DNA of 58,340 nt from Candidatus Babelota bacterium. GTDB taxonomy: Bacteria; Babelota; Babeliae; Babelales; JACPOV01. Of the stretch, positions 12,852-58,340 are shown piece by piece (position 1 is the stretch's first letter; each line of letters begins with the position of its first letter). The stretch covers positions 9,907 to 68,246 of the forward strand of contig JAKJAQ010000010.1 of NCBI GenBank assembly GCA_022707425.1, in the 5' to 3' direction. The position numbers and the translations under genes were made by a program. Below the pieces are notes generated by a model. That model was not told where the DNA came from. It made no database searches and saw only the letters and a list, made by a program, of their open reading frames with translations.

Positions 12852-14123
12852 ATGAATGCCTGCAGGCGTTGGCTGGTTTCACTCATTATTTTGGTTATTT
12901 CATACACCATACATGCAATTGATAATCCCCATTTTTATCGAGCGTTACGTTTTTGGGACGAACCTCGATTTGAACGTCCTTGGCTTAATTCATGGCAACT
13001 CAATGCCGGCTTTGCAACCACGCGCCATTCGCGTAATCCACATGGATCGATCGCTCCGCTATGGGATATTATTGGTCCGCAAAATTTACAATTTCTTGGC
13101 ACCAATGTTCCCAATCTTGACCCAGCAAATCCAATCGATCAATTGTTAATCGATGTTGCTGCACTACCGGTGCGTACTACCTTTGGCAACGTTTCGTTTA
13201 ATGGCGAGTTTGCCCTTTTTGAAATTATTGGTGAATGTTACCAAAACATTATTAACGGATTTTTTTTTCAAGCATATTTACCGCTGTTGCGCTCACTGAC
13301 TGTTTCTAACATTAATTTCACCGATTTATCGCCCGATGATAATGAGTTTCCGAATAAAAATACACCCGCCTGGCAAAATCTACTCAGCGGTTTTGGAACT
13401 ATTTTGAATCGTTACCATATTATGATCCCCAATACGATGCACCGAACCGGCATTGGCGATCTTTCATTTCTTGCAGGATGGGCATCCACGTACCAAGAAA
13501 CTCATGTTTTGGATTTTGTAGATGTGAGCGCGAAAATTGGTGTTTTATTTCCAACTGCTGCTACCGCTTCATTTCATCATCCGTTTGAATTGCCTCTGGG
13601 ATACAATGGCCACTTTGGCTTACCATTAAAATTTGATTGTTCATTGGGGGCCTATGGTTGGATCACAATAGGCTTTCATCAGGGCGCTCTTTTTTTATTT
13701 AAACGTGCACAGCACATCTTATTAAAAACAACAGCGCAGCAGAACGGTTTCATTTTATTAGCACACGAAAAAGTAACTATTGATCCTGGCACTATTTGGG
13801 AAATTGGTACCTATGCAAAAGCGGATCATGTAGTGCGTGGACTATCATTGTATGCAGGATATTCATTTACCAAGCATGATAATTCAACGCTCGAAGTTGA
13901 AAATAGCAATTTTGATATTGATATCATTAATCATGATGAACGGTTTAATGGCTGGGATATGCACACTTTTCATGTCAGTGCTGAATATGACTTTGCTGAT
14001 TCTCTTGTAGATTTGGGACCACGCATTGGCATATGGTTTAATATTATTATTGGTGGGCGGCGCATTTTTAACGCTCATTTATTCGATAGTTTATTTGGAC
14101 TTGAATGTTTGTGGCAATTTTAA
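12852..14123 (+). CDS. Probable outer-membrane beta-barrel protein
   Basis: 423 residues with a signal peptide (about 1-23, ending SYTIHA). The mature chain alternates polar and hydrophobic residues in short aromatic-rich strands (for example VDVSAKIGVLFPT, GLSLYAGYSFTKHDN, HTFHVSAEYDFAD) and ends in a C-terminal phenylalanine (LECLWQF). That ending is the classic recognition signal for BAM-dependent outer-membrane proteins, which implies a Gram-negative-type envelope. I recognise no specific porin family. It is divergent from grpE. AAAAGGAAC precedes the ATG. Confidence 0.65.
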   Translation: MNACRRWLVSLIILVISYTIHAIDNPHFYRALRFWDEPRFERPWLNSWQLNAGFATTRHSRNPHGSIAPLWDIIGPQNLQFLGTNVPNLDPANPIDQLLIDVAALPVRTTFGNVSFNGEFALFEIIGECYQNIINGFFFQAYLPLLRSLTVSNINFTDLSPDDNEFPNKNTPAWQNLLSGFGTILNRYHIMIPNTMHRTGIGDLSFLAGWASTYQETHVLDFVDVSAKIGVLFPTAATASFHHPFELPLGYNGHFGLPLKFDCSLGAYGWITIGFHQGALFLFKRAQHILLKTTAQQNGFILLAHEKVTIDPGTIWEIGTYAKADHVVRGLSLYAGYSFTKHDNSTLEVENSNFDIDIINHDERFNGWDMHTFHVSAEYDFADSLVDLGPRIGIWFNIIIGGRRIFNAHLFDSLFGLECLWQF

Positions 14124-14644
14124 AAAACTTGGTTTATTTCTGAGGACGTGGAATTCAGTGCGATTTCGTTACGCGCGGCGCGTAAAACTTCAAGCTGTTC
14201 ACACATTTGATGAAAAAGTGTTATATGTTGTTTGCTCTCAGCATGCGGCATGTAATGTTTCATTTTTTCGCACACTAGAACATATTTATTCGCAAGCACA
14301 CCAATCATGCGCATTAGATACAGAATATCTTCAGGCAAATAGCTTTCTGTTTCTTTTTCATTGCGCGATAAACTTTTAACTGCCGTCAATAATTGTTCGA
14401 TTTCTGCACATAAAACTGGTGCTTTTTCTAACAATTGTTCAAACGGTTCATGCGTTAAAAAAAGATCTAAATCACTCCACATATTTTTGCAAATTGATTC
14501 AACTTTATGAAAACTTGAATAGGGATACAAATAATCGGCGCATACGTGTACAAATGAATTTTCTTCATTATGTAAACAGTACAAATGAGTAACAAAAGAC
14601 AAAAAAACCGCATAGATTAGCGCACATTGAATGTTTTTATTCAT
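14120..14644 (-). CDS. Small exported protein of unknown function
   Basis: 174 residues from the ATG at 14644 (GAGGAAATT upstream). A signal peptide covers about residues 1-23 (CALIYAVFLSFVTHLYCL). The mature part is helical with several cysteines, possibly forming disulfides outside the cytoplasm. No family is recognised. It converges on the barrel gene with a 4-base overlap at the stops. The 196 bases between this start and the propeller gene at 14841 hold only A/T-rich leader sequence and a weak promoter-like TTGTTT / TAAGAT pair. Confidence 0.55.
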   Translation of the reverse strand: MNKNIQCALIYAVFLSFVTHLYCLHNEENSFVHVCADYLYPYSSFHKVESICKNMWSDLDLFLTHEPFEQLLEKAPVLCAEIEQLLTAVKSLSRNEKETESYLPEDILYLMRMIGVLANKYVLVCEKMKHYMPHAESKQHITLFHQMCEQLEVLRAARNEIALNSTSSEINQVF

Positions 14645-14840
14645 AATTTCCTCAGTTAACAAAAGAGGCGCACTCATTGTTAACTATGAACCATTTATTT
14701 TCAATTTGTCAATCATAATAATTCGATGCTTATTTTTTATTTCTTTCATGATAAAAAAAACAATGCAAAATCTTTGTTTCAAACTAAAAGAGATGTAAGA
14801 TATTTTTTTTAGAAATTAGATAATAACTAAGGAGGGTTTA

Positions 14841-16565
14841 ATGAAACAGGCACTATTTTTTTATTGTTTAAGTATTGTTGCTACCAGCGCATGCATGAAT
14901 GAGCATTTTCATAGATCATTAAAGGCATCATCTGAAACTATCCAATCACTCTGTGATGATTTGAATGATGTCAACATCTCAACTGAATCCATTTTTGATA
15001 ATGAGAAAAATGCACAGCTGCTTAATTGCTATGTTACTACAATTGAACAATATCCTGAAAAAAAGAATGAATTGCAAAAACAATTAGTAAATTATTTAAA
15101 TAAAGAATCAATCCAAAATTTGCAAACAATTACCAATTTAGCAGATTATTGGAACATTCCTAAGTTATTACCTTTGGCAATAAATGCAGTTGCATTAAAA
15201 TTGTCTTCAGATGAACAAATTAATTTTTTTGAAAAAAATCCTGAAAACTATCTGAACAATCTGCAGTTACCTCGAACTATTTTACCAATTGTGTCCCGTA
15301 TCTTGCTTGAAAAAAGTCCACTCAAAAATGATTTAGTTACACGAGAATTAAAAAATAAAACGGTGCCACTTTTTTCATTACCGTCTTGCCAGGCAAAACA
15401 ATATATTACCAATAATGATGAAACACTGATTGCATTTTCACACGATAAACAGATAAAGATAGTAGATCTTCAGACAAATAAAGAAGCCGTGATATATAAC
15501 TCTCCTTTTGACTCCTTAGTTCCTTGTTCATTTACCAAAAAAAATTCATCAATAATTTGTCGAACTTTTGCCGATGGCTTATGTATTATTCCGCTTTCAT
15601 CACCGACACAACTCGTTGAAATCAACGAGCCAATTTCATTATTTGATACAAGTACTGATGAACGATTTCTCGCCGCTAAATCGCAAAGATCAGGAACACT
15701 TTATTGCTGCGATTTAACAACCGGAAATCAACTCATTTCTCACGAAATTCCAGGCAACGTAACAATTACAACGATCAAAATAGATCCAACCAGTAAATTT
15801 ATTGCTACTGGCCATGCAAATGGCGTTATTTATTATTGGAAACCTGAACTGGGTAAACCACACAAGTTTGTAAACCACGTAGGAGCGGTTAATGACATTG
15901 ATTTTAATTGTAATGGTTCTCGCATGGCTTCAGCTGGTCAAGACCAAGCACTCTGCATATGGAATCTTGAAACTGGAACGCTCGATAATCGTGTAACAGA
16001 AGCGGCACCAATTAAATCGATTAGTTTTAATCCCGTTAACGACTCGTTGGGTGTAATAAATCAAAACACTACCGCAACGTTGTATGATCAAACTCTGAAA
16101 AAAATAAAAACAATTGCAAAATCAAAACAAACAAACCGTTCATTGTCTGGTTCACCCCAAATGCGCTGGTCAAAGAAAGGTGATGTGTTAACCTATGTAC
16201 ATAAAACACTTTATTTGCAAATTATCGGCTTAGTAAAAAAAGATGAACAATTCTCTGCACACTCAATCTTCAACGGATTACCTATAACAACACCATCGTC
16301 ATCATCGCATATTCGATTAAGTAATCACGGTTCTCACGCGGTAATTTATCATAAAGATACATTTAAAACACATTGTCTTCTTGATCTGTCTCAAGTTCCT
16401 TTATTGCGTAATAAAATCACCCAATCACCATCTATTTCGCAAGCACTTGCGCTTTTGTTGTGGTATAAAAATCCACAACTGTTCAATCAGCGACCTGAAA
16501 TGAGAACATTAGTAGAAACTATTGATCCGCTCATTAAAAAACATTTGGATATCAATGAACAATAA
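14841..16565 (+). CDS. Exported WD40-like beta-propeller protein
   Basis: 574 residues with AAGGAGGGTTTA before the ATG. A signal peptide covers about residues 1-18. A helical N-terminal region (about 40-150) includes NLADYWNIPKLLPLAINAVA, reminiscent of the C-terminal helices of BTB/Skp1-type adaptors. From about residue 190 a beta-propeller follows; the best repeat is HVGAVNDIDFNCNGSRMASAGQDQALCIWNLETG (given in part), a near-canonical WD repeat. The same two-part layout recurs in the genes at 29723 and 31671. WD40 scaffolds mediate protein-protein contacts. Combined with export and a BTB-like head, a role in host interaction is plausible but unproven. Confidence 0.7.
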   Translation: MKQALFFYCLSIVATSACMNEHFHRSLKASSETIQSLCDDLNDVNISTESIFDNEKNAQLLNCYVTTIEQYPEKKNELQKQLVNYLNKESIQNLQTITNLADYWNIPKLLPLAINAVALKLSSDEQINFFEKNPENYLNNLQLPRTILPIVSRILLEKSPLKNDLVTRELKNKTVPLFSLPSCQAKQYITNNDETLIAFSHDKQIKIVDLQTNKEAVIYNSPFDSLVPCSFTKKNSSIICRTFADGLCIIPLSSPTQLVEINEPISLFDTSTDERFLAAKSQRSGTLYCCDLTTGNQLISHEIPGNVTITTIKIDPTSKFIATGHANGVIYYWKPELGKPHKFVNHVGAVNDIDFNCNGSRMASAGQDQALCIWNLETGTLDNRVTEAAPIKSISFNPVNDSLGVINQNTTATLYDQTLKKIKTIAKSKQTNRSLSGSPQMRWSKKGDVLTYVHKTLYLQIIGLVKKDEQFSAHSIFNGLPITTPSSSSHIRLSNHGSHAVIYHKDTFKTHCLLDLSQVPLLRNKITQSPSISQALALLLWYKNPQLFNQRPEMRTLVETIDPLIKKHLDINEQ

Positions 16566-16598
16566 AAAAAAAGCGGCTTTTTTTGGGCCGCTTTTTTT
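16564..16598. terminator. Bidirectional hairpin terminator
   Basis: An A-run, GCGGC, a 9-base loop, GCCGC and seven Ts. The flanking A and T tracts extend the stem. It serves the propeller gene on the plus strand and ssb on the minus strand. Confidence 0.8.
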
Positions 16599-16614
16599 AA
16601 CGAACTGATTTTTT

Positions 16615-17154
16615 TTAGAATGGTAAATCATCTTGAAAAGGTGGTTCGTCTTTAAATTCAAGTTCACCAGCTTTCTTTGGCGCTTTTTTGCGCGATGCTG
16701 GTTCTTCATCATAATCAACATCAATATCATCAACATTACCAGCGGCCTGAGCTGACATTGCTGGTTTTGATGAACGCTGAGCTACAGAACGCTCACCAGC
16801 TTCGTTTTCTGCATTTGCGCCACCAGCTGACAAGAACACCACACGATCAGCAACGATTGAATATTTATTACGTTTTTGACCATCTTGTGTTTCCCACGTA
16901 TCAAATTTCAACCGTCCTTCAACAAGAACGGCGCGTCCTTTTTGTAAAAATTGACGACTGCTTTCTGCTTGCGCACCAAAAACATCGGCATCAATGAAAC
17001 ATACTTCTTGCACCATTGCGCCTGTTTGTTTGTTTTTATATTGACGATTTGATGCAAGCCCTAATCGACACACTGCCTGACCTGAAGGAAGTTGTTGATA
17101 TTCAGGATCGCGTGTCAAATTTCCCATAATGATAATTCTATTATAGCCAGCCAC
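16615..17154 (-). CDS. ssb: Single-stranded DNA-binding protein
   Basis: 179 residues, GTG start. The OB-fold (about residues 1-108) contains NRIIIMGNLTRDPEYQQLPSG, VCFIDADVFG and RAVLVEGRLKFDTWE. A flexible linker follows, and the acidic tip ends DDLPF, the conserved peptide through which SSB recruits replication and repair partners. It forms tetramers that coat ssDNA during replication, repair and recombination. It is the last gene of the mnmA-pgsA-hypothetical-ssb minus-strand run and ends at the shared hairpin terminator. Confidence 0.95.
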   Translation of the reverse strand: MAGYNRIIIMGNLTRDPEYQQLPSGQAVCRLGLASNRQYKNKQTGAMVQEVCFIDADVFGAQAESSRQFLQKGRAVLVEGRLKFDTWETQDGQKRNKYSIVADRVVFLSAGGANAENEAGERSVAQRSSKPAMSAQAAGNVDDIDVDYDEEPASRKKAPKKAGELEFKDEPPFQDDLPF

Positions 17155-17190
17155 GAGAGTATCCTTTCAAACAAAGAAAAAATTATTTAA

Positions 17191-17550
17191 TTATGTGCAA
17201 TGCCAAACATCGTTTTGCATCTTTTTATACATCTGTGTACTTTTCTCGAGGCACTCTTTGATGTGGGCAACAAGAGTAAGTAAGATGTCGCGACATCGTT
17301 GCAATGCAGCACGATCTGCATGTGCAAAAAAACCTTCTTCACTATTTTCCACTAGTTCATACAATTTAGGAATTACCAGTTTATTTGATAATCCGCAAAC
17401 AGTAATGAGTTCATTCTGCATCTCAATTAATTGCCCTTGCAAATGTGCAATTTCTTCTTTAAGCGCACCAACACGCTCTTTTTTTTGCGGTGCCGGTACT
17501 GCACTCACCAATATCACGGTTGCAAGAACGATCATTATGATTGAACGCAT
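17191..17550 (-). CDS. Small exported coiled-coil protein
   Basis: 119 residues, GGAG eight bases before the ATG. A signal peptide spans about residues 1-20 (MRSIIMIVLATVILVSAVPA). A coiled-coil heptad stretch follows (KKERVGALKEEIAHLQGQLIEMQNEL, given here only in part as a pattern), then a second helical block with two cysteines. No family is recognised. It overlaps the end of pgsA by 16 bases and lies 36 bases before ssb, so it is co-transcribed with both. Confidence 0.55.
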   Translation of the reverse strand: MRSIIMIVLATVILVSAVPAPQKKERVGALKEEIAHLQGQLIEMQNELITVCGLSNKLVIPKLYELVENSEEGFFAHADRAALQRCRDILLTLVAHIKECLEKSTQMYKKMQNDVWHCT

Positions 17551-18134
17551 GAAGAACTCCTGAATGCAAATGCTTGTTTGGCATAAGAATAAAATGCCAC
17601 AACCATCGCCACCGTTGTAAAAATAAGCATATCATCAATGATAAATTGATCCAGCGGGATATTTAATAACTGCAAACACAATGTGCATATCAACAGTGTT
17701 TGCGCGCCCATGGCAATTTTTCCTATTACTTGTGCTTTTATTTTTGTCATATGCTCATTGGCTATCACTAGAGAGGTGCCGACAATAAGCAAAAATTCTT
17801 TAGTCATGAATAATAACCAAAACCAAAATGGTAATGTTATTTTCAATTGCGTTGAAAAAGTAAACAAGGTCACCAATGCACCCATCAACAATTTGTCAGC
17901 AAGTGGATCAAGCAATGCGCCAAGCACCGTCCGCTGTTTAAATAAACGTGCAATCATGCCATCAACAAAGTCGGTCACTAATGCACTGGCAATTAATAGT
18001 AATGCAACGGTGTACAACGAACCCAAGAAAGCGTACACAATAAACGGAATTAATCCGATGCGCATGAGAGTAAAAATTGACGCAGTAGTAATTTTTCTTT
18101 GTTCAGGTGGTAGCTTATTAAAAAAATTAATCAT
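17535..18134 (-). CDS. pgsA: CDP-alcohol phosphatidyltransferase, probably phosphatidylglycerophosphate synthase
   Basis: 199 residues from the ATG at 18134. It carries the complete CDP-alcohol phosphotransferase motif D-x2-D-G-x2-A-R-x8-G-x3-D-x3-D as DFVDGMIARLFKQRTVLGAL followed by LDPLAD. At least five hydrophobic helices span the rest. PgsA transfers glycerol-3-phosphate onto CDP-diacylglycerol, the committed step to phosphatidylglycerol. The N-terminal PPEQRKITTASIFTLMRIGLIP matches PgsA rather than PssA. It starts 8 bases after mnmA ends. An upstream in-frame start at 18182 would overlap mnmA and has no ribosome site. Confidence 0.88.
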   Translation of the reverse strand: MINFFNKLPPEQRKITTASIFTLMRIGLIPFIVYAFLGSLYTVALLLIASALVTDFVDGMIARLFKQRTVLGALLDPLADKLLMGALVTLFTFSTQLKITLPFWFWLLFMTKEFLLIVGTSLVIANEHMTKIKAQVIGKIAMGAQTLLICTLCLQLLNIPLDQFIIDDMLIFTTVAMVVAFYSYAKQAFAFRSSSCVQS

Positions 18135-36758: not shown

Positions 36759-36774
36759 TGATTGTTGATTGTTA

Positions 36775-39681
36775 ATGAACTATTTCAGAAAAAAAAGAGA
36801 GTTATCCCGCACGGTTCTATTGATTGCATTATTTTGTTTTGGTTGTGCATCGTTGCACTCGATGAATTTGTTGCTTCCTGCACTTTCGCAGGCAGTGAGC
36901 ATAACCACCAAGTCATTTACACAAGTACTCACTTCTCTTTTTAATAATTTGCCACTGCCTTCAATTGAAGCACGCAATGATTCATTGCTGCCCAAAATTG
37001 TCATCAGCAATAATGCAGTTGATATGCAGACCATTGCACTACCTTCGGCTTACCATGCACCTGCCGATTATGTACAATTGCCAACAGTAAAGCCGGTTGA
37101 ATTTGCACCTGCGTTTGATCAATTAATGGTTACTGCCAATCCACAGCCAGCATCATGGGTTGGGTCGGAACTTATCAATTATCATCAAACGCACGATGCT
37201 TTTTTTTCTTCCTATGAACAATGCATCAATCTGCAAAATGAAATGATTGATCAAGCGCGCCTGAACGGTACGTTGGGCCAATTAACTTCTCGCGTCAATG
37301 AATTCTTTTCGTGGTTGTATGCGCTCAATCGTTCAGATATGACCGGAACGAATGCGCGTTTGCTGCTTGCTGATATTAAACCACCGCTTCCGTTGCTTGA
37401 ATTTTATTTTGCACAATTTAAAAAAGAGATTTGCCACTACGTGTTCAATAGTGATTGGAGTGTTAAAACACAGTTATCGGGCAACGATAGTTATAGAATT
37501 GCTCAGTTAAGTGCAGATTTGATAAAAAATGGGGTTGGTTCATTCAGTGGTAAACGTTTTATTGAACATGGATGCAAATTACATAGTGCAGGATTCAATT
37601 ATCTTTCTGGCAATGCATCACGCTCACTTATCGAATCATGCAAAAGTGCTGCTTCACATTTTTTTACGTTCGGTAATTTCAGACCGAAAATGGTGTTCAA
37701 AAATGAATTTAATAAAATATGTTCACAGATTAATGGCCATCTTGTAACAGGTAATTTTGGCAAAGCATTTGAATGCGTACAATCACTGCCAGCAAATGAT
37801 CCGCAGGCGAAACAACTGCTTTCTTTTTATCAAGAAGCGTATGGTGCACAGTACAATCGTTTTGGTGTTGCGCATTGCTATGAAAACGATCCGTATTTTC
37901 AGCGCTTACTGCCAACACTACAACCACAGCATGTTCCGCAAGCAGCACTCAATCAAACATTGGCATTTCGCGCACAATTGTATGAATCGTTGTACAAAAC
38001 AATTGGCGTTATTGGCAATCCATCACCGCTTGTTCATGATTTACTCTATTATCTTGTTGATCACTATAGTGCTTCATCAACCAATGTTACTGATATTATC
38101 ACGCATTTTTGTGAACGACTTTCGGGTGAAAGCAACGATCTTACAATAAAAGATGCGTACCACATCTTTTTTAATGATCAGGGTGTATTGCGTCTTACCA
38201 CGAATTATTCATTTAAAAAAACTGCCATTCCCGCTCCAATTCACACTGATGCATACAAACATGAAAAAGTATTACTCAATTTACTTGCGCATCTCAACCA
38301 CGCAGAAGCAACAACGCGGCAGCATATTGATTGTGCGGTTAATTATATTGTTAATGGGTGCACTGATAAACATCTTACGGCTGATTATCGCACTCTTGCT
38401 CATGAAATAACTCGCGCACTCGTTGACCCGCATGCCGATAAAACAATACTTTCGTGCGGTGATTTTTCACGCGTACCCGTTGCAATGCAACTTACCGCTC
38501 ACACACTTCGTCAGCGCGACAACTGTGCGCCAGCAAGTGCACAATATGAAAAAATGAATACGCTCATACGCGCTCTTGATAAAACGTGCACCGATATCGC
38601 AAATGGCACCTTTACGTTTGAACCGAAAAAAATGTTGCCAGTTGTAGCGCCTGAACATAAACAAACATTGGTGACTCCTCAACCACCAACTCTTTCCACA
38701 GCGCAACAACCGCCGGCACAACTTGAATCACGAACGTGGCTTGATACATTTATTTCATGGATTGCTGGTGGACTAATGATGAGCAGCATGCAAGCTGGAT
38801 TACCGTCAGCTTCTCCTCCACGCATCCCTCATTCAACAATCCCAACACAACAACCAAGCCCGCATACGCAAACACCAGTTCCTGAAGAATCAAAAAAACC
38901 AGTACTAGGTGATTCGCCAGCTGGTCACTCCGTGCATCCTGAACGAGCGCACCAAAACAGCTTAGATAAAGCAAACGAAACTGATGAAGCGACACAAGAA
39001 GCTGACGATGCAGAGGTTGCTGCGCCACGCTTTCCACGCTGCGGCCAAGCATCTGGAATGCCACTTTTCTTTCAAGAAATGCAAAAAACACCCGCGAATG
39101 CAGCTCAAAAAGCAACCACTAAAAGTGAACCAGATTGTATCGAACAAGCAAATAAATTGCCGGAGTTTGCGCAAATTGTGCTCGCAGAAAAAGCAAATGC
39201 CTATTTCAGAGCAGAAATTACAAAATATGAAGCACAAATTGTGCACGCAATTGAACAAAAATTGAAAGAACAGAATATTACGCATCCGTATCCCATAGTT
39301 ATTAATGATATTAATATGAAACATATTATGTTTGCAGAATGGAGTAAGCGAAGACAGGAGCCTACGGGTTTACATTCAGCACGATGGAGTCCTGAGCGAA
39401 TAAATAAAATTACTATTCCAGAAGGCCTTTTGGGGACTTATGAAGCTGAAGTACAATTGCATTGCAAGCATAAAAATTCTACTTTTTTTCCTAATACTTG
39501 GGATGAGAATGTCATCATTGATAAAATTATTGAATCATTTTTCATGATTGATGAAATTAAAGTTCGAACTGATGCTATCAGATTATGGGGATTTACCAAG
39601 GAAGGAATAAAGATTGAAATAACATTACTTAATTCTGGCAAAATAGTAACAGCATACCCAGCAAGAGATGGAATAAAATAA
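36775..39681 (+). CDS. Large exported protein with C-terminal EndoU ribonuclease toxin domain
   Basis: 968 residues from the ATG at 36775. Signal peptide about 1-30 (LLIALFCFGCASLHS). A helical body of about 600 residues with no recognisable domain is followed by a Pro/Gln/Thr-rich linker (about 640-720). The last ~120 residues are a bacterial EndoU nuclease domain. It has KHIMFAEW with candidate His850, PTGLHSARW with His867, a lysine cluster near 899-901, STFFPNTWDENVIIDKIIES and IKIEITLLNSGKIVTAYP, matching the toxin order H...H...K and the terminal IVTAYP strand. EndoU toxins such as certain CdiA-CTs cut tRNA. The gene is followed 4 bases later by a small gene whose paralogues repeatedly pair with EndoU pieces, as expected for a toxin-immunity couple. 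No RHS, haemagglutinin repeat or Hint domain is seen. Confidence 0.75.
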   Translation: MNYFRKKRELSRTVLLIALFCFGCASLHSMNLLLPALSQAVSITTKSFTQVLTSLFNNLPLPSIEARNDSLLPKIVISNNAVDMQTIALPSAYHAPADYVQLPTVKPVEFAPAFDQLMVTANPQPASWVGSELINYHQTHDAFFSSYEQCINLQNEMIDQARLNGTLGQLTSRVNEFFSWLYALNRSDMTGTNARLLLADIKPPLPLLEFYFAQFKKEICHYVFNSDWSVKTQLSGNDSYRIAQLSADLIKNGVGSFSGKRFIEHGCKLHSAGFNYLSGNASRSLIESCKSAASHFFTFGNFRPKMVFKNEFNKICSQINGHLVTGNFGKAFECVQSLPANDPQAKQLLSFYQEAYGAQYNRFGVAHCYENDPYFQRLLPTLQPQHVPQAALNQTLAFRAQLYESLYKTIGVIGNPSPLVHDLLYYLVDHYSASSTNVTDIITHFCERLSGESNDLTIKDAYHIFFNDQGVLRLTTNYSFKKTAIPAPIHTDAYKHEKVLLNLLAHLNHAEATTRQHIDCAVNYIVNGCTDKHLTADYRTLAHEITRALVDPHADKTILSCGDFSRVPVAMQLTAHTLRQRDNCAPASAQYEKMNTLIRALDKTCTDIANGTFTFEPKKMLPVVAPEHKQTLVTPQPPTLSTAQQPPAQLESRTWLDTFISWIAGGLMMSSMQAGLPSASPPRIPHSTIPTQQPSPHTQTPVPEESKKPVLGDSPAGHSVHPERAHQNSLDKANETDEATQEADDAEVAAPRFPRCGQASGMPLFFQEMQKTPANAAQKATTKSEPDCIEQANKLPEFAQIVLAEKANAYFRAEITKYEAQIVHAIEQKLKEQNITHPYPIVINDINMKHIMFAEWSKRRQEPTGLHSARWSPERINKITIPEGLLGTYEAEVQLHCKHKNSTFFPNTWDENVIIDKIIESFFMIDEIKVRTDAIRLWGFTKEGIKIEITLLNSGKIVTAYPARDGIK

Positions 39682-49546: not shown

Positions 49547-50683
49547 ATGATTACATTTGAACCAGAAAAATTATCTACTAATTGTTCAATCGCACGCATA
49601 AAATTAATTGGTATTGGTGGCGCTGGCGGTAACACCGTTAATAGTATGATTGATACCGAAGTTGAAGGAATTGAATGCATTGTTGCAAATACTGATGCGC
49701 AAGCACTCAACGCATCAAAAGCAGAACATAAGATTCAAATTGGTGTTAAATCAACCAAAGGATTGGGAACTGGGGCTAATCCGGAATTGGGAAAGCGAGC
49801 AGCAGAAGAAGATCTTGATAAAATCATGGAACTGGTACATGATGCTGACATTGTTTTTCTTACCGGCGGTCTTGGTGGCGGAACCGGATCCGGCGCACTG
49901 CCTGTGGTAGCGCGTGCATTACGCGAAAAAAATATTCTGTGCATCGCTGTTGTTACAAAACCGTTTCATTTTGAAGGGAAACGTCGCACTGCGGTTGCAC
50001 ATGCCGCACTTGAAACATTAAAAAAAGAAGTTGATACATTAATCGTTATCCCAAACGAAAAATTACTCAATGTGGTCGATAATTCAGTCTCGATGATTGA
50101 TGCATTTGGCATGATCAATGAAGTGTTGCACCGCTCAGTAAAATCGATTGCTGATATTATTGCAAAACCAGGTCACATTAATGTTGATTTTGCGGATGTT
50201 CGCGCCATTATGAAAGATCGCGGTATGGCAATTATGGGAACTGGCATAGCAACTGGTGCAGATCGCGCACAAAATGCAGCATTACAAGCAATTAGTTCAC
50301 CACTTCTTGAAAACATGAATATTGCTGGCGCAAAAGGTGTTCTTCTCAATATTACCGGGGGAACTAACTTAGGATTGCATGAAATTCGTGTTGCTGCGTC
50401 AATAATCTATGAACAAGCTGATCAGGATGCCAATATCATTTTAGGTTCTGTTATAGATGAAACTCTTACCGATGAGATTCATGTAACCATCATCGCTACT
50501 GGTTTTACACCAATTTCAACAATTGAAACTGCAAAAACCAAAGAAATTACACCAGCACAAGTGCAAAAAGTAGAAATCAAGTCACCGTCTATTTCAATAG
50601 AACAACCTGCAGTAACTGTTGATATTAATGATCTGGATGTTCCAACATTTTTACGAAAAAAACAACAAGAAGATTCAATTTAA
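49547..50683 (+). CDS. ftsZ: Cell division protein FtsZ
   Basis: 378 residues. GTP-binding IGIGGAGGNTVNSM, tubulin signature GGLGGGTGSGALPVVA, and the T7 synergy loop GHINVDFADVRAIM. After a short linker the conserved C-terminal peptide DLDVPTFLRKKQ, which binds FtsA, is present. It polymerises into the Z-ring. GGGGAGAGGGG precedes the ATG, 12 bases after ftsA. A strong terminator closes the cluster. Confidence 0.97.
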   Translation: MITFEPEKLSTNCSIARIKLIGIGGAGGNTVNSMIDTEVEGIECIVANTDAQALNASKAEHKIQIGVKSTKGLGTGANPELGKRAAEEDLDKIMELVHDADIVFLTGGLGGGTGSGALPVVARALREKNILCIAVVTKPFHFEGKRRTAVAHAALETLKKEVDTLIVIPNEKLLNVVDNSVSMIDAFGMINEVLHRSVKSIADIIAKPGHINVDFADVRAIMKDRGMAIMGTGIATGADRAQNAALQAISSPLLENMNIAGAKGVLLNITGGTNLGLHEIRVAASIIYEQADQDANIILGSVIDETLTDEIHVTIIATGFTPISTIETAKTKEITPAQVQKVEIKSPSISIEQPAVTVDINDLDVPTFLRKKQQEDSI

Positions 50684-50697
50684 TTTATCTGAGATAG

Positions 50698-50723
50698 GAG
50701 AGCCGCACGAGGCGGCTCTCTTT
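50698..50723. terminator. Strong hairpin terminator after ftsZ
   Basis: GAGAGCCGC, loop ACGAG, GCGGCTCTC, then TTT: a perfect 9-bp GC-rich stem. It sits between convergent ftsZ and the first beta-helix gene and can serve both. Confidence 0.85.
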
Positions 50724-50731
50724 AAAAGAAA

Positions 50732-52138
50732 TTAATTACCAAGTAATTCACTTATTGCATTACTCAAATTTCCTACTGACACATTTGAGTTAATCAATGA
50801 AGGCGATGAAACGTTTGCTGAAAGTAATGATGAAAAGCCTGCTAAAGCATTACCACCGGTTCCGCCATCAACATTGCCAACACTAACGTTATCAAATACT
50901 CCTGATTGACCTGAAGGTAATCCGATTGCACTATTGGTTAAGCTTCCTTCAATGATAGCTAACGTAACTCCAGTAGTGTACGTTACACTATAATTCGTAC
51001 CGTTATTAAGCGCATAGTTTCCGATTACTAATGAACTACTTGGATTTGCATCATCAGCAATACCAAAACCCTGAACTCCCGAATTATTAACAACAGTATT
51101 GTCTTCAATATAACAATTTGAACTATTATTTAATAAACGTATACCATATGCTGATCCGGCAGAGCTCGTATTTGCACGACTCATACAAGTATCTAAGTAT
51201 GAGGTATTTTCACCATCTAACATGTAACCGACAGCAGAAGCAAACCCGTTATTATTTTGAGCAATAGATTTTTCAATTATATTTTGAGAACCATTGGTTG
51301 AAGAGAATCCAGCACCTCTTCCAGCAAGAGCGCCGTTACCTACCCCTTGACAATTAGCCACCCAAAGTCTTGAGCAGTTATTAAAAAAGAAACCAGAACC
51401 AAGTGAATTGGAATCACCAGCTGCAGCAATATTGAAATAGCAAATACAATTGTCCATTAAACCATCACTGCTCGAATCAAAATTAAATCCGATCGCTGTA
51501 CCAACACCGAGTTGACCCAACGCTTTACTATTAGTTATTTGAAACGCGCTTACATTTTCAAATGATATTCCCCGAGAAGCAAGATTAACTAATTGTTTCG
51601 TTCCTTCAAACAAACAATTTTCCATTGATAACCTGCTGCAATTTTTTACACGAAGGCCATAAGCAGATCCGGATGTCGACAATACATTTGAAAATGAGCA
51701 ATCTCGAATGGTTAAGTTACTAAGACCTGTCCCTGTTGTAATGCCTTCACAAAAAATGCCCGCATCGGTGCAACTGTCTAATGTTAAATTTTCAAAAGTC
51801 ACCTGTGAGCAACCATCATTTACATAAATGCCATTGCTCGTCAGATTTGCAATTTTACCGTTTCTAATAATAACATTTGAAAGATTTGGATTAATCACAA
51901 TTAATTTAAAACCGGGAACGGTATTACCAACTTGTTGCCCAAATGTTCCATCTCCCAAATCTAATACAATATTGCTACTCGAAATAATAAACAATGAATC
52001 GTTAGGATCAGTTGGGCTTCCATTAAATCCCGCACCATATTTATACGTGCCAGGTGTATCAAAAATTATCGCAATTGAGTCAGCCAATGCTGCACAATTT
52101 AATACAAGACCTACAAACAATAACAATTGTTTCTTCAT
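50732..52138 (-). CDS. Secreted right-handed beta-helix protein, array member 1 (subfamily A)
   Basis: 468 residues. Signal peptide about 1-19 (LLLFVGLVLNCAALA). The opening IIFDTPGTYKYGAGF and SSSNIVLDLGDGTFGQ match the next gene. Then many short rungs of parallel beta-helix (NVIIRNGKIANLTSNGIYVN, VTFENLTLDSC, LTIRDCSFSNV, LSMENCLFEGT), the NosD/pectate-lyase-like pattern with N and C at regular turns. No catalytic Asp/Arg set for pectate lyase is apparent. It ends in a serine/glycine-rich part (GNVDGGTGGNALAG, ISELLGN) unlike the others. A surface or extracellular binding role is inferred. Confidence 0.75.
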   Translation of the reverse strand: MKKQLLLFVGLVLNCAALADSIAIIFDTPGTYKYGAGFNGSPTDPNDSLFIISSSNIVLDLGDGTFGQQVGNTVPGFKLIVINPNLSNVIIRNGKIANLTSNGIYVNDGCSQVTFENLTLDSCTDAGIFCEGITTGTGLSNLTIRDCSFSNVLSTSGSAYGLRVKNCSRLSMENCLFEGTKQLVNLASRGISFENVSAFQITNSKALGQLGVGTAIGFNFDSSSDGLMDNCICYFNIAAAGDSNSLGSGFFFNNCSRLWVANCQGVGNGALAGRGAGFSSTNGSQNIIEKSIAQNNNGFASAVGYMLDGENTSYLDTCMSRANTSSAGSAYGIRLLNNSSNCYIEDNTVVNNSGVQGFGIADDANPSSSLVIGNYALNNGTNYSVTYTTGVTLAIIEGSLTNSAIGLPSGQSGVFDNVSVGNVDGGTGGNALAGFSSLLSANVSSPSLINSNVSVGNLSNAISELLGN

Positions 52139-52195
52139 TTTTTTCCTTTATTTTTCATAAAAACTTTTTTTATATGTACAGACTATTTTTTCTTC

Positions 52196-53461
52196 TTATG
52201 TAAATGCAATATTTTCGTAATCACTTGCACTGGCAATAGTAGAAAAATCTCCAACCGTTGCAAAAAGAACGGGCAAACTGCCACTCGTGCGGTTTACATC
52301 AAATGCAGTAGTTGTATTTTGAAATGATAAATTTCCTGCGATTAAATTTGTAGTATCAGTTGTTGTATCTTTTAACCCAACACCAATAAGACCGGTATTA
52401 CCAATAAGTTTATTTTGCCAAATATCGCAATTTTGCGGGCCATTAATGTAAATTCCATAGCCGGTTCCAGCCACGCCACCATTGTTAATGCGACTCGTGC
52501 ATTCCATAAGAGCTGTTTGTGATTCTGTACCATTAATCGCAAAACCAGCAGCTACCGTAGCACCACTATTATTTCTTGAGTTACAAAGCACACACATATT
52601 ATCTGATCCATCGAGTAATTCAAAACCATATGATTGAGATAATGAACTATTACTATGTTTGACTATGCAATCAGTCAAAGTGTTGTGATCACAATCATTA
52701 ATTAAAAACCCTACTGCTTTGCTTGTTCCTGAAGCGCTACGCGCAATTGTGTTCATTGAGTTACAGTTTCTCACAATAGCCCAACGGCATTGAAAAAGAC
52801 TGATACCAACACCCAGAATATTTCCTCCATTATTTTGAGCACTACAGTCCACAATTTTGCATGAATCGCAATTTTCTAAACTTAAGCCAAAACCAGAAGC
52901 AATAGTACCTGCATCATTATTTTCAAAAACGCAATTTTTTAGAACGAAGTTGTCACATTCTACTAAACGCATTCCGTACGCAGGCCCTCCATTATTTCCG
53001 GTGCATGATAAAACTAAACAATCAATGATAGATCCATCTTTAATAGCATTTAATGAGGTGCCTGCTAATAATATTCCACCTGCAGGACACTCTCTTATTT
53101 GAATATTTTCGATGACGATATTTTCGCATCCTTCATTTACAATAATGCCGGCACCAGTCACATTACCAATATTCCCATTACGCAATGTAACATTTTTCAA
53201 ATCAGCACTTATAACAACACCATTAAGTCCTCCAACAGTGTTTCCCGGTGTTTGTGCAAATACATGCTCACCTAAGTCAACCACTACATTGCTTGATGTA
53301 ATGCAAACAATAGCATCATCGGGGTCAGAGGGAGATACAATATTGTCAGCACCATATTCATAATTTCCTGGTTGATCTATAACTGAGCAAACAGAATCAG
53401 CCTTGGTTATTTGAGCGCACACCAGCGCACTGCTCAGAAAAATTAAATATAGCTTCAACAT
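52196..53461 (-). CDS. Secreted right-handed beta-helix protein, array member 2 (subfamily A)
   Basis: 421 residues from the ATG at 53461 (AAGGAGAAGTTT upstream). The frame extends further upstream without a ribosome site. Signal peptide about 1-22. IDQPGNYEYGADNIVSPSDP and ITSSNVVVDLGEHVFAQTPG match member 1. Beta-helix rungs are unusually cysteine-rich (CDNFVLKNCVFEN, ENCDSCKIVDCSAQN, NDCDHNTLTDCIVKHS). Regularly stacked Cys-containing rungs could form disulfides or a cysteine ladder after export. Tail ENIAFT. Confidence 0.75.
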   Translation of the reverse strand: MLKLYLIFLSSALVCAQITKADSVCSVIDQPGNYEYGADNIVSPSDPDDAIVCITSSNVVVDLGEHVFAQTPGNTVGGLNGVVISADLKNVTLRNGNIGNVTGAGIIVNEGCENIVIENIQIRECPAGGILLAGTSLNAIKDGSIIDCLVLSCTGNNGGPAYGMRLVECDNFVLKNCVFENNDAGTIASGFGLSLENCDSCKIVDCSAQNNGGNILGVGISLFQCRWAIVRNCNSMNTIARSASGTSKAVGFLINDCDHNTLTDCIVKHSNSSLSQSYGFELLDGSDNMCVLCNSRNNSGATVAAGFAINGTESQTALMECTSRINNGGVAGTGYGIYINGPQNCDIWQNKLIGNTGLIGVGLKDTTTDTTNLIAGNLSFQNTTTAFDVNRTSGSLPVLFATVGDFSTIASASDYENIAFT

Positions 53462-53493
53462 AAACTTCTCCTTAAAAAAAATTAAAAAAACTT

Positions 53494-54807
53494 TTAAGTA
53501 GTAATTGCTCCATTTGTCCATGGACTAGTAATATTATTAATATTACTCGTTGCAGGAGCAGCGGGTGTTGTTAAGCTTCCTGCAGGAAAGCCGGTTATTT
53601 GATTGGCGATTGTTGTTCCATTATTAAATGCACTATTTTGAAAACACAGCTGAGTGAAAGCGACCGGTTGTTCTATTATGCCAAAAGATCCTGCCGTTCC
53701 AATGTTGCGATTAAATTGACAGTTTCTTACTAACCAATTGCTCCCGACAGTGGCCTCAAAAACCATTCCTATGCTATTGAGAGTTACCGCATTATTATAT
53801 AAAGCTAAACACCCAATAAGTGCATTTCCATTAGCGGTATTTAACCCTCGAAAACCCGCAAAAGATTGTCCTCCAGAAGTTGATGAATTCGCTATTGCAG
53901 CACAATCGGTCATTATGTTTTGATTTGATCCATCATAAATAAAGCTTACATTATTTCCTAAGCTTGTATTTCCCAATGCAACACAACCGGAAAAATAATT
54001 ATTCGTACTTGATACTAATGAATATGCTGTAAATGCTTGATTAGAAGCAGCATTAGATCGAACACTACATTTGTTAAAACTTATTCCACCGCTACTTTCA
54101 ACTAAAATCGCGGTACAGGTTGTAATTGTTGAACTACAGTTCATTACTTGACAGGTATTAAAAATAATTTGTTCACATTTACCTAAATTAAATCCTTGAA
54201 AAGATCCTGTTGTCGTGTTGTTTGAAACAACAGTATTATCCACATTACAATTTTCACAACCACTCATTTGTAAAGCTTTAAAACTTACAGTGGTAATAAT
54301 ATCACTAATTAAGATGTTGCTTAATGCTCCATTTAGACAATTATCCAAAGAAACAGCTGCCGTTGTCGTTAACTGCGTATGCCCACCAAAAATTCCACAA
54401 TCTGCAATTTCAAAATTGGTAATCATTCCAGAACCCGAAGCACCAATTAATGCTATTGCACCAGATCCACAATTTTCTATATTTAAATTATTAATTTTAA
54501 TTCGGCTACAGGTATCATTTATAACTATTCCTTTTCCCGTAACATTCAGTATCTTACCATTTTTGATGGTAACATCAGTCGATTTTGGTGCAATTGTTAT
54601 TCCATTTACATTTGAAGTACCATTTAGCCCTCCCAAATCCATCACAACATCATTTGCACTAATAGTAATTAACGTATCTGCACCCAAGGGGCTACTTGAT
54701 ATAAAATCTCCCAAAAGATAATTGCCAGGCAATGTAATGGCGAGTTCAACAGAATATGCAGTAAAACAAAGTAGCAGAAAAAAAGACAAAGAATAAAAAA
54801 CCTTCAC
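53494..54807 (-). CDS. Secreted right-handed beta-helix protein, array member 3 (subfamily B)
   Basis: 437 residues, GTG start with GGAGTAGG upstream. Signal peptide about 1-19 (SLSFFLLLCFTAYS). Subfamily B opening VELAITLPGNYLLGDFISSS, then ISANDVVMDLGG, VTIKNGKILNVTGKGIVIN and further rungs with N-C-S turns. The C-terminus has FNNGTTIANQITGFPAGSLT followed by TPAAPATSNI and SPWTNGA, a tail shared by members 3-6. No enzyme motif seen. Confidence 0.75.
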   Translation of the reverse strand: MKVFYSLSFFLLLCFTAYSVELAITLPGNYLLGDFISSSPLGADTLITISANDVVMDLGGLNGTSNVNGITIAPKSTDVTIKNGKILNVTGKGIVINDTCSRIKINNLNIENCGSGAIALIGASGSGMITNFEIADCGIFGGHTQLTTTAAVSLDNCLNGALSNILISDIITTVSFKALQMSGCENCNVDNTVVSNNTTTGSFQGFNLGKCEQIIFNTCQVMNCSSTITTCTAILVESSGGISFNKCSVRSNAASNQAFTAYSLVSSTNNYFSGCVALGNTSLGNNVSFIYDGSNQNIMTDCAAIANSSTSGGQSFAGFRGLNTANGNALIGCLALYNNAVTLNSIGMVFEATVGSNWLVRNCQFNRNIGTAGSFGIIEQPVAFTQLCFQNSAFNNGTTIANQITGFPAGSLTTPAAPATSNINNITSPWTNGAITT

Positions 54808-54835
54808 CCTACTCCTTATTTACATTTTTTTACAC

Positions 54836-56155
54836 TCACGCAGCTGCAGCAATATTTGTCCAGGAGCCTGTAATGGTCGCGATATTATTACTAGCAGGAG
54901 CTGCGGGTGTTGAAACAGAACCTGCAGGAATTCCTAAAAGTTGATTCGCGACTGTCGTATTATTACTATATCCAACTGATCGTGTAAATAGATTGTTTGC
55001 TCCAACTGCACGATTAAAACCAAATGAAGTCGCTGCTGTATTTCCTTGATTTCCCTCAGCAATACAATCCACAAAAGCAGAGTTCGTATTACCAGCAGTT
55101 TCTAGTGAAATACCGATTGCAGTTCCTAAAGATGCCCTATTAAATCCTGATAGTGCGCGTAATGCGGTTATAAAATTAGAATTGTTCATCAAAAATCCGA
55201 CTGCTCTATTTGGTGCAGCGCCACTTGCGGTATTGCCTTGGGCAACACAATCTATCAAAATATTTTCATTACTCGTGTTCAACACATACCCAAAAACTGA
55301 AGCGCCTGAGTTTAAATTTACTTGGCAATTTCGTAATACATTATTTGTTGATGTACCACTGAAATCAAATCCTGTAAAAGTTGTAACCGCACTGTTTTGC
55401 AAAACAGCGCAATCAACAAAACTGTTGTCAAAAGATGAACTACCAAAAACGAATCCTTCAAAAACAGTACCGCTGGCATTATTGTTTCTCACAACACAAT
55501 TAACAAATGAATTTACCGTACCAGTTTTTGCCGAAACTCCATTAAAAATAGGCGAAACATTATTTTGTATCAGGAGATTTCCAAAACTGCTTAGTGAAAC
55601 TGTTGTTAAGCTGAGCCCAGACAAAGTTGCGGTGTTATTTGTCATACTACTAATAGTACAATTGGTGCATTGTATTTGCGAACACGTATCAAAAAAAAGT
55701 GCCGAATCAGCAGTTGCAGCTGAACAACAAGAAAAAAATCTGCAGTTTTCGATTTCAAGATTATTAATTATAGAACCAGAAATTCCTCTTGTTGCACAAT
55801 TTTCAAAAATCACATTTGATAATTTAATTCGAGCACATGAAGGATTAATGAGCACTCCTCTGCCCGTAACATTACGTATTATTCCATTTTGTATTGTAAC
55901 ATCGCTAACACCGCTTGAAATTATTATTCCATCAACATTAGCGGTTGCATTTCCTTGAGCAATCAAATTATTTTTGAAATCCAGAACAACATCACTTGCA
56001 TTTATTGCAATAATACAATCTGTTCCAGTTGGGGTAGTCACAATTGAATCGCTTATTTCATAAGATCCGGGTAGGGAAATCGTTAATTCAACGGCTCGCA
56101 ATGCGTAAGTCCAAACAACTAAGATTAATATTATAATTCTGCTTTTACTGTGCAT
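54836..56155 (-). CDS. Secreted right-handed beta-helix protein, array member 4 (subfamily B)
   Basis: 439 residues starting at the ATG at 56155, which overlaps the stop of member 5 as TGATG. A GTG one codon upstream is also in frame. Signal peptide about 1-22. VELTISLPGSYEISDSIVTT, INASDVVLDF, VTIQNGIIRNVTGRGVLINP, then rungs. The tail NNTTVANQLLGIPAGSVSTP and APASNNIATITGSWTN is the clearest form of the shared C-terminal motif. Coupled translation with member 5 suggests equal expression. Confidence 0.75.
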   Translation of the reverse strand: MHSKSRIIILILVVWTYALRAVELTISLPGSYEISDSIVTTPTGTDCIIAINASDVVLDFKNNLIAQGNATANVDGIIISSGVSDVTIQNGIIRNVTGRGVLINPSCARIKLSNVIFENCATRGISGSIINNLEIENCRFFSCCSAATADSALFFDTCSQIQCTNCTISSMTNNTATLSGLSLTTVSLSSFGNLLIQNNVSPIFNGVSAKTGTVNSFVNCVVRNNNASGTVFEGFVFGSSSFDNSFVDCAVLQNSAVTTFTGFDFSGTSTNNVLRNCQVNLNSGASVFGYVLNTSNENILIDCVAQGNTASGAAPNRAVGFLMNNSNFITALRALSGFNRASLGTAIGISLETAGNTNSAFVDCIAEGNQGNTAATSFGFNRAVGANNLFTRSVGYSNNTTVANQLLGIPAGSVSTPAAPASNNIATITGSWTNIAAAA

Positions 56156-57480
56156 CACGATCCAATTGCCATATTAGTCCAAGCTGCTGTCACCGCAGCC
56201 AAATTACTTGTTGCAGGAGCACCCGGTGTTGTTACTGATCCAGCGGCAACACCTAACAATTGGTTTGCCGCAGTCGTATTATTATTAAACGCAATGTTGC
56301 GAGTAAATAAATTATTAGCACCAACTGTAAGAGTAACTCCACGCGAGTTTGCAGCGCTGCTGCCTACATTTCTATTGAATAAACAATTTATAAAAGCATT
56401 GTTTGTATTTCCAGTACCTTCAAGAACAAGACCAATTCCTAAAGATGCTGTTGATGAATTATATGAAGCCAGACACCGTAACATTGTGCAAAAATTTGCA
56501 TTGGTGAATAAATAACCAATGCATCTAGCGGCAGCAGCAGTTGCGCTATTATCGGTCACTAAACAATCTATCAATGTTTGTTGAACCGATGCGTTAAAAT
56601 TAAAACCTACACAGTTAGTTCCGCCAATGCACGAACTCACTCTACATTGATTAAATACATTACTATCCGACGTCGAAACAACATTAAACCCAATAAATTG
56701 ATTTGCCGTACTTCTATTAAAAATCAGATCACAATTATTAAATACATTGGAATCACTAGAGCTAAAGTCTAGCCCAGTAAGAAGACCTGTTGCCGAATTA
56801 CTACGCGCAATCAAATTCGTAAATACATTCGTTGCGCAAGAAGTAAGTGTAACCATATCTAGGGTAGTTCCACTATTATTTTGCAAAGTTAGCCCTTTAA
56901 AATCACATCCTGTACAACTTGCAAGGTTTAAAAGTGATAGCGTCGCAGTGCCAGCTGTATTGGCAATGATACAATCAGATACTTGAGAATAAATTGTGTT
57001 GGTGAGTAATAAGACACTGTCTGCGCTTGCACCATTTGCGCAAGAAAAAAATCTACAATTTTTTATTTCAGAGTCGCGAATTTGATTAACTCCCGCTGCT
57101 CCGGTAAATGCAATACCCCGACTTGCACAATTTTCAAAATAAATATTTTTTACACTAATTCTTGAGCATGCTTGATTTACCAAAATCCCTTCGCTGGTAA
57201 CATTTCTAATGATACCATTTTGAATTACGACATCATTTAAACCTGAATTAATAACGATACCATCCACATTCGCTGTTGCATTATTCTGTGCAACTACATA
57301 ACCACCCAAATCAAAAATGACATCACTCACATTAATGTTGATGATACTATCAGCACCTGTTGGTGTACTTAAGATACTTTGGCCCAAAGTATAAATACCT
57401 GGTAAAGAAATGGTTAATTCAACTGCATTTATATAGAAAGAAGAAAAAATAATAAGAGTTAAAATAATTTTTTTTTTCAT
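56155..57480 (-). CDS. Secreted right-handed beta-helix protein, array member 5 (subfamily B)
   Basis: 441 residues. Signal peptide about 1-19 (ILTLIIFSSFYINA). VELTISLPGIYTLGQSILST, VSDVIFDLGGYVVAQNNA, VVIQNGIIRNVTSEGILVNQ, closely similar to member 4 in the first 120 residues, then divergent rungs. Shared tail NNTTAANQLLGVAAGSVTTP and APATSNLAAVTAAWTN. The ATG overlaps the stop of member 6 (ATGA). Confidence 0.75.
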   Translation of the reverse strand: MKKKIILTLIIFSSFYINAVELTISLPGIYTLGQSILSTPTGADSIININVSDVIFDLGGYVVAQNNATANVDGIVINSGLNDVVIQNGIIRNVTSEGILVNQACSRISVKNIYFENCASRGIAFTGAAGVNQIRDSEIKNCRFFSCANGASADSVLLLTNTIYSQVSDCIIANTAGTATLSLLNLASCTGCDFKGLTLQNNSGTTLDMVTLTSCATNVFTNLIARSNSATGLLTGLDFSSSDSNVFNNCDLIFNRSTANQFIGFNVVSTSDSNVFNQCRVSSCIGGTNCVGFNFNASVQQTLIDCLVTDNSATAAAARCIGYLFTNANFCTMLRCLASYNSSTASLGIGLVLEGTGNTNNAFINCLFNRNVGSSAANSRGVTLTVGANNLFTRNIAFNNNTTAANQLLGVAAGSVTTPGAPATSNLAAVTAAWTNMAIGS

Positions 57481-58340
57481 GCTGCTATTGCCATATTTGT
57501 TGCTGGTAAAGTTATGCTTGCAATATTACTGGTAGCTGTTGCTGCTGGCGTTGAAACTGATCCTGCAGGAACACCTGAAAGTTGATTTGCAACTGTAGTA
57601 TTATTATTAAATGCAATCGTTTTCGTAAAAAAATTATTAGTACCAGCAAGAATTCTAACACCAAATGAATTGGCTGCAGAGCTTCCAAAATTACGATCGA
57701 CAATACAATCAGAAATCGACCAATTAGTTCCGCCACCTCCCTGAAAAGAAACACCTATTGCTAATGAGGCGGATGAACGATTGTAAAGGGCAGCACACCG
57801 AACAAGTGTTCCAAAATTAGCGGTATTTACCAAATAACCTGTTGATTGCCCAGCAGCTCCAGTTGCACTATTTGCAATTGCGTAACAATCAATCAATGTA
57901 CATTGATCACCCACACCGCCTGCGCCAACAATATTGAACGCTGTCATTGCAGTGGAACCAGTATTACCAATTGATTTACATTGCTTATAGGTACCAGTAG
58001 TCGATGTTGCAGAATTAAAATCAGTGCACGTATTTGCAGAACTATTATTTGAAAGTGCCAGGCAATTAGTTATAGTTGCAAGTATACTCGTATTAAAATT
58101 ATAACCTATCATGATACCAGTAGAACTATTATTGCGTGCCGTACAATTAAGAAAAGTATTATTACTACCAGATGAAAATTGAAATGCTGTCAATGCAGAT
58201 CCCACACAATTTTGAACCGTTACATTTACAATATCGCATAGATTGCAACTGGTTAAATTAACCAAAGTCAAATTTGTTCCGGTGCAACTGCTAATTATGC
58301 AATCATTTACTAAAACCCGATAGCAAAAATTCAAAATAAT
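57477..58340 (-). CDS. Secreted beta-helix protein, array member 6 (5' end beyond the window)
   Basis: At least 287 codons, open to the right edge. No signal peptide is visible because the N-terminal third lies outside; the apparent TTG start at 58334 is not a real start. Rungs such as NDCIISSCTGTNLTLVNLTS and NNTFLNCTARNNSSTGIMIG, and the shared tail NNTTVANQLSGVPAGSVSTP with ATATSNIASIT, place it in subfamily B. Confidence 0.75.
   Translation of the reverse strand: MILNFCYRVLVNDCIISSCTGTNLTLVNLTSCNLCDIVNVTVQNCVGSALTAFQFSSGSNNTFLNCTARNNSSTGIMIGYNFNTSILATITNCLALSNNSSANTCTDFNSATSTTGTYKQCKSIGNTGSTAMTAFNIVGAGGVGDQCTLIDCYAIANSATGAAGQSTGYLVNTANFGTLVRCAALYNRSSASLAIGVSFQGGGGTNWSISDCIVDRNFGSSAANSFGVRILAGTNNFFTKTIAFNNNTTVANQLSGVPAGSVSTPAATATSNIASITLPATNMAIAA

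Follow-up and report, generated by a model that had tools for sequence, protein, structure and literature searches.

The window analysed here is a 58,340-nucleotide stretch of a Candidatus Babelota genome (G000:C1:9907-68246), whose right edge is the end of contig C1 (68246). Its ORF listing places six adjacent genes, p6 to p1, on one strand between 58340 and 50732, next to a convergent ftsZ:

57477..58340, minus strand: p6, tail-type beta-helix paralogue; start missing, cut by the contig end; ends ...NNNTTVANQLSGVPAGSVSTPAATATSNIASITLPATNMAIAA
56155..57480, minus strand: p5, tail-type paralogue with signal peptide, N-cap, beta-helix and tail (PF13229, AlphaFold2)
56158..56313, minus strand: tail of p5, the final 52 or so codons ahead of the stop; last-coil strand, low-confidence Pro/Ala/Thr linker and terminal WTNMAI strand
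54836..56155, minus strand: p4, tail-type paralogue (ORF, PF13229, TGATG overlap with p5)
53494..54807, minus strand: p3, tail-type paralogue; GTG start preceded by AAGGAG (PF13229)
52196..53461, minus strand: p2, beta-helix type conserved as a single copy and lacking the tail form of p3-p6 (PF13229, orthologues)
50732..52138, minus strand: p1, conserved beta-helix type without the tail form of p3-p6; extension of about 50 residues past an FDNVSV element (PF13229)
50699..50721, no strand: GC-rich 9-bp hairpin where p1 and ftsZ converge (-17.6 kcal/mol, z -4.2)
49547..50683, plus strand: ftsZ, convergent neighbour of the array (ORF call, locus comparison)

The six genes described in a first, sequence-only reading of this DNA are thus present, as are the translationally coupled pairs, of which it had counted at least two: from p6 to p1 the intergenic spacings are -4, -1, 28, 32 and 57 bp, with an ATGA overlap at the p6/p5 junction and a TGATG overlap at p5/p4. 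Any continuation of the array past the window, as stated in that reading, would lie beyond the end of the contig. For p2 we use the ATG at 53461, which has an AAGGAG-type ribosome site, as the longer ORF call to 53521 would overlap p3. The hairpin is a probable terminator common to p1 and ftsZ; scans for promoters and terminators gave matches no more numerous than in shuffled sequence. FtsA relatives, with 57% identity to that of CRAIB_MAG84, assign this genome to Candidatus Babeliales/Dependentiae. Elsewhere in the window (36769-39681), a 970-residue ORF carries a C-terminal bacterial EndoU nuclease domain (PF14436, 3e-10) and is possibly a secreted nuclease.

The proteins had been proposed to be secreted parallel beta-helices, and for p1-p5 this holds on several counts. 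All five score above the curated cut-off of Pfam Beta_helix PF13229 (28.4-61.7 bits against 25.9; PF05048 NosD is matched more weakly), and AlphaFold2 confidently models p5 (pLDDT 91.5) as a parallel beta-helix: each coil takes up 27-30 residues, the pattern is rich in Asn and Cys, and the strands of the last coil lie at 391-398. The model of p1 has a pLDDT of 82.8, with all residues beyond 390 below 50. The truncated p6 gave no significant match of its own in the Pfam search and is assigned through its homology to p5, to which it is 47% identical. Beyond the domain match, the array proteins additionally possess a conserved N-cap and a C-terminal coda. Membership of the NosD family proper was rejected (p2 scores 13.9 bits with TIGR04247, NosD_copper_fam, against a cut-off of 300). 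Each of p1-p6 contains 13-20 cysteines, many beside an asparagine at the same rung position, a pattern that suggests a stacked cysteine ladder inside the helix.

Inspection, together with a predicted N-terminal helix, reveals a signal-peptide-like N-terminus in p1-p5 (p6 lacks its start), from which we infer export via Sec; passage beyond the inner membrane would presumably follow. The genome encodes two secretins, and a search for the autotransporter barrel PF03797 found none at E<=0.1, nor is there a barrel domain within p1-p6. In Babela massiliensis, a type II system is reported as the sole secretion system (PMC4378268).

Comparison with structural libraries placed the p5 model closest, among predicted viral structures, to beta-helix proteins of giant viruses of protists (Klosneuvirus KNV1 A0A1V0SLS7, E 1e-13, TM 0.69; Hyperionvirus A0A3G5AB52, TM 0.62). 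This is a likeness of fold only, at 14% identity, and scans of IMG/VR and phage records with the A2 and p2 alignments, plus tblastn against phages, returned no sequence relatives in viruses. A sequence search of the PDB returned 4mxn alone (E 0.03).

Of the order's 101 genomes, 19 contain the family at E<=1e-10, frequently as tandem copies (genomes G001, G003, G002, G004, G054, G016 and G068). In four species of the genus, namely our own and G001, G003 and G002, the array adjoins ftsZ; in G002, p1 and p2 are absent between the two. The p2 gene has orthologues in G001, G003 and G004 (tree support 100) and a similar gene in G054, and is 45-57% identical across two families. The p1 type, present twice in both G001 and G003, also comes out as a clade (support 99 within the genus). 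In the same tree the tail types multiply within individual genomes. Hence p2 represents an old type that has been conserved, as does p1 in a looser sense, and the tail type is the one that multiplies. In G054, which belongs to another family, a five-gene array (L180:5162-13364) combines p2-like and tail-like members; most genomes of that family have no array, which suggests transfer or repeated loss. One tail-type paralogue of G003 (L080:9279-10654) is broken into ORFs of 141 and 298 residues and is apparently a frameshifted pseudogene. Large proteins of the relatives also carry long Cys-containing repeats like LNACCEGTFSVLANL ahead of beta-helix domains (L080:1-2204; L081:2687-7467 and 13237-17728; L086; L087:1284-5627; L085:14708-16279), and several contigs break in or near repeats of this type.

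Conservation is unevenly distributed along these proteins. In 28 tail-type proteins, mean pairwise identity per 20-residue block is 0.44-0.54 over residues 21-100, falls to 0.22-0.35 over 101-380 and rises again to 0.37-0.40 over 381-440, so that both ends are conserved and the middle is variable. The N-terminal ~100 residues, which the sequence-only reading had not mentioned, are therefore conserved more strongly than the tail it had singled out. Its claim that the rungs vary is borne out by measurement, since the middles of the tail-type proteins of this genome are 26-42% identical and their tails 47-67%. Between p5 and p4, the NG86 dN is 0.36 in the N-part, 0.63 in the middle and 0.25 in the tail, with dS near saturation and similar along the length; low dN at both ends at near-saturated dS indicates that these are held by amino-acid selection. 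The p2 type, by comparison, is under uniform constraint along its length.

The common tail of four members is likewise real: in this genome it occurs in p3-p6 and in one fusion protein on contig C18, and 14 of the 50 alignment columns are invariant even with the latter included. When the whole family is aligned, the columns of the tail fall at the C-terminal end of all types, and N400 and N436 are almost invariant. In the p5 model, the first ~10 tail residues lie inside the last coil; pLDDT is 83 for 401-410, drops to 62 and then 43 over 411-430 and recovers to 65 in the next block, so that a low-confidence linker rich in Pro, Ala and Thr precedes a short terminal strand at 436-439. The tail is thus best read as a C-terminal coda belonging to a family of secreted beta-helix proteins, in part last coil and in part conserved flexible extension. 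It begins in the last coil and, in the genomes searched, turned up on no protein outside the family; ~40 conserved residues lie beyond the helix.

The first reading took the tail for an independent export or anchoring module, and the searches do not bear this out. A wide tail profile (18 members, E<=5, ten genomes) and a narrower one (49 genomes) both gave significant E-values for ORFs of this beta-helix family alone; matches outside it were weak (E>=0.15 in the ten genomes, E>=0.02 in the 49) and mostly short or broken frames. A strict DNA pattern of the terminal motif (Trp-x-Asn-hydrophobic...stop), which overlooks p3, p4 and p6 themselves, hit two family genes in the whole genome, p5 and the one on C18, besides six short frames attributable to chance, and a contig scan with the tail-type alignment returned no relative. 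Nor does the C18 protein place the tail on unrelated domains: its 802 residues (L009:7498-9906) join a lactonase-type seven-bladed propeller to a tail-type beta-helix. Conserved ends with a diversified middle therefore stand, and a portable anchor is not supported in the genomes searched. PEP-CTERM, LPXTG and lipoprotein anchors were dropped, as inspection found neither a C-terminal hydrophobic segment nor a lipobox.

A narrower proposal is that the tail is a sorting or anchoring signal specific to this family, the flexible linker offering the short strand at its end to an export apparatus (such as type II) or to an outer-membrane partner. The ~40 post-helix residues are conserved despite low AlphaFold2 confidence, and a conserved end predicted to be flexible is also what is expected of a sorting signal. 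Linker length varies, as in G001_02, where an insertion leaves the terminal WTN strand in place; the propeller fusion keeps the tail; and the strand motif is seen again in further protein families of this order. Within the family, 38 of 45 rows have [WFYL]xN[hydrophobic] in their final 13 residues, compared with 6.5% for internal 13-mers. In 12 proteins from other families of the order, Nhxh is present at the C-terminus of 10 (against 15%), although these sequences are related and hence not independent. On the other side stand the restriction of the tail to one family in the searched genomes, the existence of the p1 and p2 types without the p3-p6 form, the lack of any hydrophobic C-terminal segment or lipobox, and p1 itself, whose orthologues end at FDNVSV, an element related to the tail, while in our p1 it sits ~50 residues before the C-terminus, so that the element need not stand at a free C-terminus. 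We consider a dedicated signal of this kind possible if unlikely, and the tail may still have a family-restricted sorting or docking role in view of its conservation beyond the helix.

The array copies of one relative, G001, carry evidence of exchange. In its genes 03, 04 and 05 (L082:3746-7800), the N-parts, spacers and tails are alike at the DNA level and the middles have diverged, at silent sites too; in 40-codon blocks the ends reach 97% and 94% and the middles 38-74%, and the similar blocks extend from a tail through the spacer into the N-part of the next gene. Differences at four-fold silent sites are 0.04-0.43 in the ends and 0.53-0.78 in the middles overall, with a significant contrast of ends against middle for 03/04 (p 5e-7; N-part 0.20, middle 0.78) and 04/05 (p 1e-3; tail 0.04, middle 0.58), and none of significance for 03/05. 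Selection at the protein level alone would not give such a contrast, which in G001 is likely to stem from gene conversion or unequal crossing-over; misaligned rungs could account for part of the silent divergence of the middles. In G004_1/2 the contrast (p 0.005) comes from the N-part only, in our p4/p3 it is weak (p 0.03, uncorrected), and there is none in the other pairs of the window or in most other pairs compared. Between G001 and G003, silent sites of array orthologues are saturated (~0.72) against 0.30-0.42 for ftsQ, ftsA and ftsZ, a gap to which codon constraint in the fts genes may contribute.

Plain, old tandem duplication, with a relaxed middle, ends kept only for folding, and neither selection for diversity nor any particular part played by recombination, would fit the near-saturated and even dS of p5/p4, the uniform constraint on p2 and the region trees, which are broadly similar in topology and too weak to detect recombination by discordance. 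It sits poorly with the silent-site heterogeneity in the G001 and G004 pairs, with the DNA-level blocks of tail, spacer and N-part, and with an expansion that was repeated in separate genomes, and we regard it as rather unlikely. A further reading, that the ftsZ-side array is a locus of recombination-driven diversification, its ends and spacers serving as handles that copy and shuffle the middles into a changing host-facing coat while the terminal strand docks the copies to a common outer-membrane partner, is a speculative extension that we hold to be quite doubtful. Finally, it is very improbable that the proteins are polysaccharide-active enzymes (lyases, hydrolases or epimerases) whose array spans a substrate range: the top PDB fold matches are indeed phage tailspikes, a fucoidan lyase and alginate epimerases, but at TM of only ~0.25-0.5 and 8-16% identity, the invariant or nearly invariant residues of the 43-member alignment are limited to the start M, G, N and a single N-cap D, and the rungs, where known beta-helix enzymes have their active sites, are the least conserved part. 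With no conserved catalytic residues, an enzyme identity was set aside, and a binding role is the likelier one.

We therefore favour, as the probable though by no means certain explanation, a family of right-handed parallel beta-helix proteins, exported by Sec and expanded in this lineage, with an intrinsic C-terminal coda, multiplied in tandem with exchange of the ends and with middles that serve for binding. A tail-type member would carry a conserved cap at its N-terminus, then some eight coils of variable sequence, and last the coda, in which the final coil is followed by a flexible linker and a short strand at the terminus. Capping or docking of the helix end is the most likely role of the coda, which would be intrinsic to the family, not a transferable anchor; the post-coil residues of p5 and those of p1 beyond 390 are modelled at low confidence, which weakens the case for capping. 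Copies would multiply in tandem, with gene conversion or unequal crossing-over swapping sequence between their common ends and spacers as the middles, probably binding surfaces turned towards the host or the cell surface, diverge.

Among known systems, the chlamydial Pmp proteins of intracellular bacteria are likewise multi-copy, variable beta-helix proteins; they are autotransporters, however, whereas the search of the array genome found no autotransporter domain. Within the phylum of the array genome itself, Babela massiliensis and Chromulinavorax are host-dependent parasites with many secreted repeat proteins, expanded families in which ankyrin repeats have been stressed (PMC4378268, PMC6561590); a term search of both papers gave no mention of beta-helix proteins, and a literature search found no paper linking Dependentiae with the beta-helix. 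New here are the ftsZ-side location in four species, the distinction between the old p2 and p1 types and the multiplying tail type, and the contrast between ends and middles at silent sites in one relative.

These results bear on a group that is known almost only from metagenomes and whose members are known as parasites of protists. With its several copies, constant ends and quickly changing middles, this probably secreted family is a concrete candidate for the interface at which Babeliales meet their protist hosts, and its fixed place on the chromosome makes the locus comparable across species. More generally, variable repeat proteins can share a conserved end without its being an anchor.
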